Origin: Acanthamoeba sp. SK_2022b
Taxonomy: Eukaryota > Discosea > Longamoebia > Acanthamoebidae
DNA length: 64,000 nt
Direction: 5' to 3'
Assembly (NCBI GenBank): GCA_027943245.1
Contig: JANDJZ010000027.1
Span: 124,001-188,000 of the forward strand
Shown: positions 7,685 through 33,235 of the stretch, piece by piece
How positions within the stretch are numbered: the stretch's first letter is position 1
How the letters are laid out: the number at the start of each line of letters is the position of its first letter
Made by a program: the position numbers and the translations under genes
Notes under the pieces: generated by a model
What the model was told of the DNA's origin: nothing
The model's input: only the letters and a program-made list of their open reading frames with translations
Databases searched by the model: none

Positions 7685-8226
7685 AGGTCCAGCCCAACGG
7701 GACACAGTTTTGTACAGCGAGAGCTACAACGTTGTAGGAGGAAAGTAAAACGTTCTTCGCACCATCCGTTTTGATCTCACCCAAACACCCGGCGAGAATG
7801 ATGTTGTTGGAGAAGGTGGTATGGTCAGCCGCGGGCGATACTCTCCAGATGGCCACCTGAGTGTGGGACAACCAGAAGATCGTCTTCACTATGGCACGGA
7901 GGCCAAGCCCATCAAGACTCAGTCACGCCGGCACGTCGACCCTCAAGATGAGCGGCTAGTGGCTGGTCGCAACCAAGCCTGAGTCTGACGATGTGACTGA
8001 GTTTGCGACGGTTACAGCTTCTGCTACAACTGCGACCAGTGCAATGGCGGACTACAAGTGGTTCAGCCTCTACGGCCAGCGCAACAAGCTCGACAACTGC
8101 AATGCCAGCAGTCAACGTAGGCGCCCTGGGCCGGGAAGATGAAAGCCATCACGAGCAGTACAAGTTGCTGAGCAACTGCATTGTGGGCGATGAACCGTTC
8201 TACAATTTTGCCATCTCCCCGTGCCG
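7685..8226. other. Unresolved region between the E2 and the Hcp-F-box gene
   Basis: A perfect palindrome-like CTACAACGTTGTAG lies at 7724-7737. Frames on both strands look partly coding. On the minus strand, 7710-7889 reads KTIFWLSHTQVAIWRV and so on. On the plus strand, 8044 onward reads MADYKWFSLYGQRNKLD with GC-rich third positions. Neither joins to a complete gene by eye. It may hold 3' exons of the Hcp-F-box gene, a small separate gene, or only untranslated sequence. Confidence 0.3.
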
Positions 8227-9180
8227 TCACCACCCGCGCTGGCCCTCGTCACCGGCTTGCTGCGGCCAGAACGGGGCCACAAGGTGCCCATCGAGATGGG
8301 TGTCGTTGGTGGTGAGGTCATAGCCTACAGTGTGAGCCGCGAACACCTTCAGCTGGTCGTCGCTTGCCGCATACAGGAATCGCTTGCACACCTAGAGAAA
8401 GGATGATTAGTCGTCATCAGCCTAGTCAGTGGCCAGGAGACTGGCGGATGGGAGGGGCACCTTGGCGGCACGGGAAAGGGATTGCTGGTCGAGACGCAGG
8501 AAGATGCTGACGATCAGCTCGAGGGGCAGAGGGAACCCGGTATCAACGCCCAGATGCGGGTTGAAGGCGGTGTAGGAGGGAGTCTGCGGCAGCGCCAACG
8601 GTCGCCTGACCTTGTCCACCACGCTCATTTCCATCCGCTGGAAGTGGAGCGACAGCGATTCGCTGCCGGGCGCGACCTCGAGCTCCTGATTGTCCATGTC
8701 GTCCAGTTCACCGTCCGCCGACATGGATAGGCTGGAGAGAAAGACGGAGGAGAGGGTGAAGCGAGTCGTGACGCTGTCGTAGACGTGCTCGACAATGGCG
8801 CTGCGGAAGGGTCGCCGGAGGGTGGTGTAGTGGAGCAGCAGGGGGCTGGTGGCATCGCTAAGCTTGCTAAGGGTGACCTCACTTAGTGATGGAGGAGAGA
8901 TCTCGGTTCTGCTCTCCCGTACGCGTCGGTAGAAGGCCTCCTCTTCCGTCTCGTCCACAATGATGTCGCCAGCACCGACAGCAGCTTCCTCTTCTCCGTT
9001 GGCCCTGGAGGTGTTTCCAGGCCGCCGGCCACGCCCCACGCCGACACCAGCACCGAACTGACACGAAATGAGGGGTATCCAGCCCTCATATCCTGCGGCC
9101 CTTGCGCTGCCCTGTATGCCCTCCAGCTTGAGGTAGAACCTAGTCTCTGGGGCCTTTTTGCTGGTGGTTTGCGTAGTCAT
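8227..9180 (-). CDS. Hcp-like (type VI secretion tube fold) domain fused to an F-box
   Basis: Two exons (9180-8461, 8391-8227; 69-nt intron ending TTTCTCTAG) encode about 294 aa. Residues 14-50 read RFYLKLEGIQGSARAAGYEG-W-IPLISCQFGAG. Residues 98-130 read SLSEVTLSKLSDATSPLLLH and RRPFRSAIVEHV. Residues 140-191 read RFTLSSVFLSSLSMSADGEL and SESLSLHFQRMEMSVVD. These follow in order the pattern of bacterial Hcp proteins (PF05638): start strand, W/S-W-G strand, the F-x-K-x-x-D-x-x-S-P-x-L block, the V-x-V-x-S-x-S strand and the E-x-x-x-L-x-F-x-x-x-E end. Residues 216-255 are an F-box (PLPLELIVSIFLRLDQQSLS, then AAK-VCKRFLYAASDDQL across the intron). The stop at 8227 is the first in frame; further exons cannot be excluded. 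Confidence 0.75.
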
Positions 9181-31038: not shown

Positions 31039-33235
31039 ATGTCGGAGAGCACATCTACGTCCACCGGGCCGAAGGGCAAGGGCAGGGCTAACGGATCTGC
31101 TTCATCGGAGAAATGGAGCTATGAGAAGATCGAGGACCTACCTGAGGAGCAGGACTACTTCGCCAAGAAGCTGCCCCAGCACCTCATGGTCGATGATCCC
31201 TCGCTCAACTGGTTTCAGAAGCCCCACACCATCACGGTGATGGCCATTGCCCTCATCGTGCTCATTTTTGGCGCCTTCACAAGGGAGGGAACAGAGACCG
31301 TTGCCAACGTAAAGTTGTACGCGGCCTCCTCCCGAGTCAATTCATCATTGCAGTTCATTATTTTTGTCTTTTACTAATTGCATCGCCCCCCGGTCACCGG
31401 CAGTGGTTTGTGCGCGGGTGCCGTTGTGTTTCTGGTGTTCTGCCTGCTGTATCTCCATGATGGCCCATTCGTTCGCCCTCACCCTGCCGTCTGGCGAGTT
31501 GTCACCGGCGTGGGCATACTCTATCTCTGTTCGCTTGTCTGGATCCTCTTCCAGGTACGCCATCTTCGCTTTCCTTCTCTCTTTGTGTTTTAAATCTTCT
31601 TTTTGCAAGTGATTTGCGCTGATGAATGAGGGGCCTGATCGGTGCTGTGGCCACAGAACGTGCATGACGTGCGTCTCTTCTTGAAGTACTTCGACCCGCG
31701 CCTGGGCGTGCCGCTTCCGGAGCGCTCGTATGCCGCCGATTGCGACCTCTACACGCCGGACGACCCCTCCTCCAACTTCCGTCACCTCATGGTATACAAA
31801 CGCCCACGCGAGCGCAGCCTCGCCACTGCCGCTCTTGATGGAGGAGGGAAGCGGAGGTGACTGACTGGTGGTTGTGGTGTGCCCCTCTAGGACACGGTGA
31901 ACGACGAGTTCGTGCTGGCGCACGTCGTGGGCTGGTTCGCCAAGACGCTGCTGCTGCGCGATGCCTACCTCTGCCTGTTCCTCTCCATCATGTTCGAGAT
32001 CTGGGAAATGACATTCCAGCACCAGCTCCCCAACTTTGCCGAGTGCTGGTGGGATCACGTGCGTCTCTCCCCGTCCTAGACACTAACACAACGTTGTGTC
32101 CAGCATGACTGAGCTAACGAGCTCGATGCGCTCCATGTCTTCATGGACAGGTCATCTTGGACATTCTGATCTGCAACAACATCGGCATCATCGTGGGCAT
32201 GATCACGTGCCGCTACCTCTTCAAGATGAAGGTGCGTTTGCTCGACCCTTTGCCGTGCGAATCTACCTCGCCAAGGGTGGCTCATGTTTCTGTCCTCTGG
32301 CGGCGCCATCCGTGTGTAGGAGTTCAACTGGACGGGCTTGTGGGCGACGAAGCAGGGCAAGATCGTGCGCTCGTTTGTGCCCACCTCGTTCGACGAGTAT
32401 CGCTGGGAGTTCCTCAAGAGCTGGAAGCGCTTCGTCAGCGTGCTCCTCCTCTGCATCGCCGTAAGTGTCCTCCGCCAGTAGTGGAGGAGTTCCACTACTG
32501 GCGGCCTTTCCCTCACGCTTTGTGTTGTCATGGACTGTCCGACCAGCCCGGTGGCTGACCGGTCCTTGTTTTCAGGTCTCCATCATCGAGCTCAACGCGT
32601 TCTACCTCAAGTACATCTTGTGGGTGCCCCCTCCCCACCCGCTCAACATCATCCGCCTCTGCCTGTGGCTCTTCATGGGCCTGCCCGCCCTCAGGGAGTA
32701 CTACCAATTCGTCTCTGACCCGTACGTGTGCCCTGCTCCCTCGAGTTCTATTGGTGTTATTGTCCAATACTCATTACTACTCTTGCTGAACATCGCCTAT
32801 CCTCCCCTCGCCTCGCCGCACAGCAAGTGCAAGAAGATGGGTTCCATGACATGGCTCTGCACGCTCGTGTTCTGTACGGAGGGACTGATATGCATCAAGT
32901 TCGGCCGTGGAATGTTCCCGGACCCGACGCCGCCCGAGGTGCGTTGATTCCCTGTTGGCTCTTTCCTTTCCTTGGCTAGTGCTGACTTGTGGACTTGGGG
33001 GGTGTTGTCGGCGTAGGTGTTCTGGCCGTGGGTCATCTTCCTGGTCGGCGGCACGCTGGCGGCGGTGATCTACTTCTACCGGAAGGAGACGCAGCAGGGC
33101 TCCTCCGGCAACGGCAATGGGAAGAGGAAGAAGGGCAAGAAGAAGGAGAGCAGCAAGGCCGCCCTGAGCGAGGCAAGTGTTGGAGAGGCCAGCAACAGCA
33201 GCAACAACAGCGGCGACAGCAAAAAGTCTCAGTAG
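31039..33235 (+). CDS. Phosphatidylserine synthase, base-exchange type (PSS1/PSS2)
   Basis: Nine or so exons. The N-terminus (MSESTSTSTGPKGKGRANGS) is disordered. FQKPHTITVMAIALIVLIFG begins a multi-span membrane domain. Key family blocks are VHDVRLFLKYFDPRLGVPLP, LLRDAYLCLFLSIMFEIWEM with [20 protein letters not shown] and ILICNNIGIIVGM, then FNWTGLWATKQGKIVRSFVP and FLKSWKRFVSVLLLCIAVSI. The E-x-x-E-x-x-F-x-H-x-L-x-N-F-x-E-C-W-W-D-x-x-x-L-D stretch is the PSS signature. It exchanges serine for the head group of PC or PE in the ER. The C-terminal tail is Lys/Ser/Asn-rich, ending NNSGDSKKSQ at 33235. About 450 aa. Confidence 0.9.

Follow-up and report, generated by a model that had tools for sequence, protein, structure and literature searches.

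A two-exon gene for an Hcp/F-box protein

The stretch of DNA analysed here, 64,000 nucleotides of Acanthamoeba sp. SK_2022b (the window), belongs to contig C439 of a 44.9-Mb assembly (G000), and carries on its reverse strand a gene whose product joins a barrel of the type VI secretion protein family Hcp to a eukaryotic F-box. The gene model of the initial annotation, with an ATG at 9180, exons at 9180..8461 and 8391..8227 and a 69-nucleotide (nt) GT-AG intron between them, was found to be correct, and the gene is laid out as follows.

8227..9180, reverse strand: whole gene, ATG to stop, two exons, 294 amino acids
9180..8461, reverse strand: exon 1, start ATG at 9180
8391..8227, reverse strand: exon 2, stop included
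8392..8460, reverse strand: intron, GT..AG, 69 nt, inside the F-box (from the sequence, the relatives and the unspliced F-box score)
8611..9147, reverse strand: Hcp barrel, residues 12-190
8890..9051, reverse strand: extended loop L2,3, residues 44-97 (54 residues, acidic, predicted helix at 79-89)
8530..8610, reverse strand: linker, residues 191-217, modelled in part as strands (202-207, 212-214) at low confidence
8461..8529, reverse strand: F-box part 1, residues 218-240 (PF12937/PF00646)
8350..8391, reverse strand: F-box part 2, residues 241-254 (PF12937/PF00646)
8230..8334, reverse strand: tail at the C terminus, residues 260-294 (GYDL...APFWP), with homology to the tails of Hcps that lack an F-box

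Comparison of the spliced protein with Pfam gave a match to Hcp (PF05638) at 40.8 bits against a cut-off of 23.5 (E 3.2e-10), and a match to the F-box-like family (PF12937) at 36.5 bits over residues 218-254 (cut-off 24.3, E 4.2e-9), with PF00646 reaching 27.7 bits (cut-off 20.5); only Hcp and F-box domains were found, the latter with a motif of the LPxEL..IF..L..L.RA..VCKR type. The predicted structure of the protein contained the Hcp beta-barrel fold with high predicted similarity to Hcp, and together with the profile match this bears out the Hcp homology that had been proposed. Searches with the unspliced exon-1 frame spoke against it, as no match was obtained in NCBIfam and Hcp was not among the matches of a PDB sequence search. 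Kinship to Hcp is thus visible by profiles and structure, and not by a single-sequence search of solved structures. A model of a full-length relative, P0001, had a predicted local distance difference test score (pLDDT) of 57.7, was weak outside the barrel and modelled the F-box arrangement poorly.

The Hcp and F-box parts are encoded in one reading frame of one exon. In the unspliced frame the F-box-like match reached 16.7 bits, below the PF12937 cut-off, and the 69-nt intron is therefore needed; the earlier reading of an F-box divided by an intron holds, since the profile passed its cut-off in the spliced form only. Relatives were collected in a first protein search (7) and with a profile of eukaryote-type rows (19), eight being of the F-box type, with P0007 and P0128 sharing 47% and 45% identity with exon 1 of the window gene; automatic database names already label several relatives as Hcp. 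Half of the F-box-type relatives (P0001, P0002, P0007 and P0128) were unbroken across the intron site, continuing with CKRF..AA or TKRL..AA through the rest of the F-box to a similar tail, and in each of these four the F-box-like profile also scored above cut-off. The other half (P0003-P0006) diverged immediately past this residue, where all four have a V, as would arise from translation of the GT at the intron start. Splicing is accordingly supported by the relatives, with P0004, a chimeric prediction, contributing weakly. This metagenome protein joins the start of an ATP-binding cassette (ABC) transporter ATPase to an F-box-type Hcp, and has the look of a chimera formed in assembly. For the four proteins that read through the site, the longest contigs measured 954-1093 bases, as would fit spliced transcripts, but those of the intron-reading P0004 and P0005 were of like size (1089 and 984 bases), so that contig size is no proof of splicing. 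With the intron site either read through or diverged at exactly in all eight F-box-type relatives, the locus is one intron-bearing gene, as had been claimed, and the joint Hcp/F-box gene is confirmed as real and conserved.

The F-box is nested within an Hcp-type protein

The same genome holds at least two further Hcp genes that are devoid of an F-box, L002 (contig C752) and L001 (contig C624), and F-box-free relatives were also recovered among the protein searches (P0008-P0012). Both genomic paralogues encode barrel and tail in one intronless open frame; they resemble the window gene in the barrel, in carrying a loop insert of the charged kind and in the tail, and differ from it in the lack of both F-box and intron. 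L001 is flanked by stretches matching glutathione peroxidase (PF00255, 47.6 bits) and signal recognition particle (SRP) receptor beta (PF09439, 27.4 bits). A further weak match to PF05638 (L016, 16.8 bits, under the cut-off) was seen on contig C434 at 33012-33227.

In F-box-free Hcps the tail, mostly of the form GYDL...PFWP, follows directly after the barrel, and in the fusions it follows the F-box. A profile built from seven F-box-free tails scored 36.5 bits on the window gene, whose matching stretch starts earlier than those of the others owing to an earlier RRP, and 23.2, 20.6, 16.8 and 15.8 bits on the four other fusions; the best of 5000 shuffled sequences reached 10.7 bits. Bacterial Hcps end similarly, with YDL among the final 20 residues in 94 rows out of 119 and a looser form in 117. 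This tail homology, together with the similar bacterial ending, places the F-box within an Hcp-type protein. A simple appending of an F-box to the C terminus is rejected on account of the homology of the tail to F-box-free Hcps; the fusion described in the initial annotation stands, in the modified form of an F-box seated after the barrel and ahead of the original tail. The exact borders of the insertion are not fixed, because the structure model aligns linker residues 202-214, at low confidence, with the C-terminal region of Hcp in solved structures.

An enlarged stacking loop

Loop L2,3 of the window protein comprises 54 residues and is thus not the bacterial type of loop that serves stacking. 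In the 13 of 14 Acanthamoeba-type rows that could be parsed it spans 44-62 residues, and in P0129 and P0130 it has 38; in 94 of 95 parsed bacterial rows (119 in total) it has 19-21, the sole bacterial value of 43 (P0115) being a parsing error. These counts leave aside the 24 of 119 bacterial rows and the one of 16 eukaryote-type rows (P0005) that were not parsed. P0129 and P0130 are Hcps whose inserts are acidic and whose C-terminal extensions are long and charged; they lie on the eukaryotic side of the tree described below, far from the Acanthamoeba-type rows.

An extended loop juts about 20 A out of the barrel, according to a passage in PMC2944823, and a two-residue mutation in loop L2,3 abolishes the stacking of Hcp hexamers in another species, as a part of PMC5874247 describes. 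As the long charged insert occurs both with and without the F-box, the comparison suggests that these eukaryote-type Hcps may have retained the ring subunit and not the tube.

Descent of the Hcp family

An unrooted tree was built from 58 rows and 159 columns, with 16 eukaryote-type and 42 bacterial rows, leaving out the chimeric P0004 and P0006, which is close to P0007. The 119 bacterial rows, called bacterial by kinship, consisted of 115 of the 120 listed out of 474 matches and four from the eukaryote-type profile search; thinned at 72% identity they gave 39, to which three from L003 were added (one identical to P0038). A single branch (support 100/96) separated the eukaryote-type from the bacterial rows, and the seven F-box rows formed one side of a branch supported at 100/99. 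The tree would fit one acquisition followed by one F-box insertion. The bacterial source first proposed for this Hcp family is supported. Eukaryotic status is direct for the genes of this genome and, for the metagenome proteins, follows from kinship. Acquisition of the Hcp probably predates the fusion, because F-box-free Hcp genes are also present and share the enlarged loop.

A viral source was rejected, one scan of viral contigs with the eukaryotic alignment having returned 11 pattern matches and no relative. A close bacterial donor was likewise sought without success: when genome contigs were scanned once, 104 pattern matches came back with just one relative, 25% identical and situated in an alphaproteobacterial type VI cluster, and the profile of eukaryote-type rows (7996 candidates scored) gave four bacterial-looking proteins among its 19, at 27-32% identity to L002.

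Genomic setting

The genes neighbouring the Hcp/F-box gene encode, by Pfam, a DnaJ-domain protein, a ubiquitin-conjugating enzyme and an RNA recognition motif (RRM) protein. The ubiquitin-conjugating-enzyme gene, which we take to be closest to UBE2S, is in several pieces, one matching PF00179 at 35.5 bits and another at 18.0, under the cut-off; it is convergent with the Hcp/F-box gene, at a distance of about 540 bases (7685-8226) that were assigned to no gene. A second F-box is present in the window at 499-660 on the forward strand (about 535-621, 34.3 bits), followed by an open frame at 1119-1436 that reads like leucine-rich repeats (LRR), and the two together are probably an ordinary F-box/LRR gene. 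Genome-wide, Skp1-family genes were represented by three matches to PF01466 (best E 1.1e-29), and among 421 candidate F-box stretches all 150 that were scored passed the cut-off; an SCF (Skp1-Cul1-F-box) system is therefore to be expected. A cofilin-family exon of the assembly matches actophorin of A. castellanii (PDB 1ahq) at 80 of 84 positions, which speaks for Acanthamoeba as the source; an 18S primer pattern for this genus gave 0 matches, which either counts against it or reflects a lack of rDNA in the assembly.

No type VI genes adjoin the Hcp/F-box gene, and TssC (PF05943) turned up solely on another, bacterial-looking contig, C331. This contig of 39.9 kb, with dense unbroken frames, encodes TssB, TssC and two Tae4/Tai4 pairs, which are amidase effector and immunity pairs (L009, L010, L011), and no PF05638 match was reported on it. 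It may derive from a contaminant, a food bacterium or a symbiont.

Proposed function

We propose that a bacterial Hcp gene was acquired in the distant past by an amoeba lineage, that its ring-stacking loop was lengthened by a long charged insert and the gene duplicated, and that one copy took up an F-box between barrel and tail. The F-box would most likely bind Skp1 and thereby bring the protein into a Cul1-type SCF ubiquitin ligase, with the Hcp barrel, probably oligomerising as a ring, as the arm that recognises substrates. The likeliest partners would be further copies of the protein and the Hcp paralogues without an F-box that the cell also encodes; it might also act on some other partner. 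Taken as a whole, a captured and duplicated Hcp with a nested F-box, acting as an SCF adaptor, is the best explanation and one that we hold to be rather likely. Of the initial suggestion that Hcp had been turned into an SCF substrate arm, the membership of a bacterial Hcp family is upheld, as is an F-box that, judged from its sequence, could in principle bind Skp1.

Several points weigh against this proposal. The F-box of the window protein ends in K where that of Skp2 has W, and the similarity of the F-box of P0001 to that of Skp2 was not significant by sequence alone (E 0.27). Two of the seven F-box rows, P0003 and P0005, show only its first half. The bacterial rows of the tree came mostly from a search seeded with three alphaproteobacterial Hcps, with 120 of 474 matches listed, so that bacteria outside this sample might group with the eukaryotic rows.

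Some F-box proteins have structural or trafficking roles, and the present one might bind Skp1 in such a capacity and be no degradation adaptor at all. The shortness of the protein, the lack of any Pfam domain beyond Hcp and F-box and the K at the last F-box position, in place of the W of Skp2, would agree with this; the F-box-like score, which exceeds its cut-off in P0001, P0002, P0007 and P0128 as well as in the window gene, argues the other way, and we regard a role of this kind as unlikely, if worth keeping in mind. The SCF adaptor could instead catch incoming type VI Hcp by co-assembly, or effectors borne in its lumen, for ubiquitination in a cell-autonomous antibacterial defence, along the lines of the sensing role that the initial annotation thought possible. 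Retention of the barrel with high predicted similarity to Hcp, joined to an F-box, would suit such a capture, as would the type VI genes and the two Tae4/Tai4 pairs on a bacterial contig of the same assembly, which imply that type VI-armed bacteria may occur with the amoeba or in its culture. However, the enlarged loop would be expected to hinder stacking onto bacterial rings, and simpler partners are at hand in the F-box-free paralogues that the cell itself encodes; we hold capture of this kind to be quite improbable. That the gene is an artefact of contamination, chimeric assembly or a false gene model might be entertained on account of the bacterial-looking contig C331, at least one such contig being in the assembly, but both parts share one exon reading frame, four relatives have the same architecture, the intron falls inside the F-box and the adjoining gene, for a ubiquitin-conjugating enzyme, is itself split into several pieces; we give this scarcely any credence.

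A central structural component of the bacterial injection apparatus, and not a toxin, has been retained by a eukaryote as a small, diversified family. If the proposed SCF adaptor is correct, the nested insertion would wire a captured Hcp to the ubiquitin system, offering a testable case of bacterial parts gaining a eukaryotic function and a candidate for amoeba defence against bacteria. Should the capture of type VI components hold true, the protein would be a cytosolic sensor built from the attacker's own weapon, with the Hcp barrel as bait and the F-box directing the catch to destruction.

Comparison with known systems

Among the literature matches listed, no eukaryotic Hcp or Hcp/F-box protein was found in titles or the starts of abstracts, most subscription journals lying outside the coverage. 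In the main text of the paper on the Acanthamoeba castellanii genome (PMC4053784), the terms Hcp, type VI and F-box were looked for and did not occur; the title of that paper tells of many horizontally acquired genes in Acanthamoeba. In the sections seen of PMC4431377 and PMC3482391, Hcp figures in bacterial toxin systems only. The combination of Hcp with an F-box and its nested make-up appear to be new, and horizontal acquisition and varied F-box arms are of kinds already known.

The window protein shares its barrel fold, the order of its motifs and a YDL-type tail with bacterial type VI Hcps (PF05638; Hcp1 of P. aeruginosa and EvpC of E. tarda). In contrast to these, its gene is eukaryotic, its loop L2,3 has 54 residues against 19-21, an F-box lies inside it and it has no type VI neighbours. 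F-box proteins carry varied arms, and the receptors of SCF ligases, such as Skp2, have in common with the window protein an F-box of the same motif type. Their usual other domains are WD40, LRR or similar, whereas the window protein has an Hcp barrel in this place and its F-box near the C terminus. The dae genes of ticks and protists, which are domesticated type VI amidase effectors, are likewise type VI genes kept by eukaryotes; their product is a secreted enzyme, whereas here a structural tube protein has been joined to a ubiquitin module.
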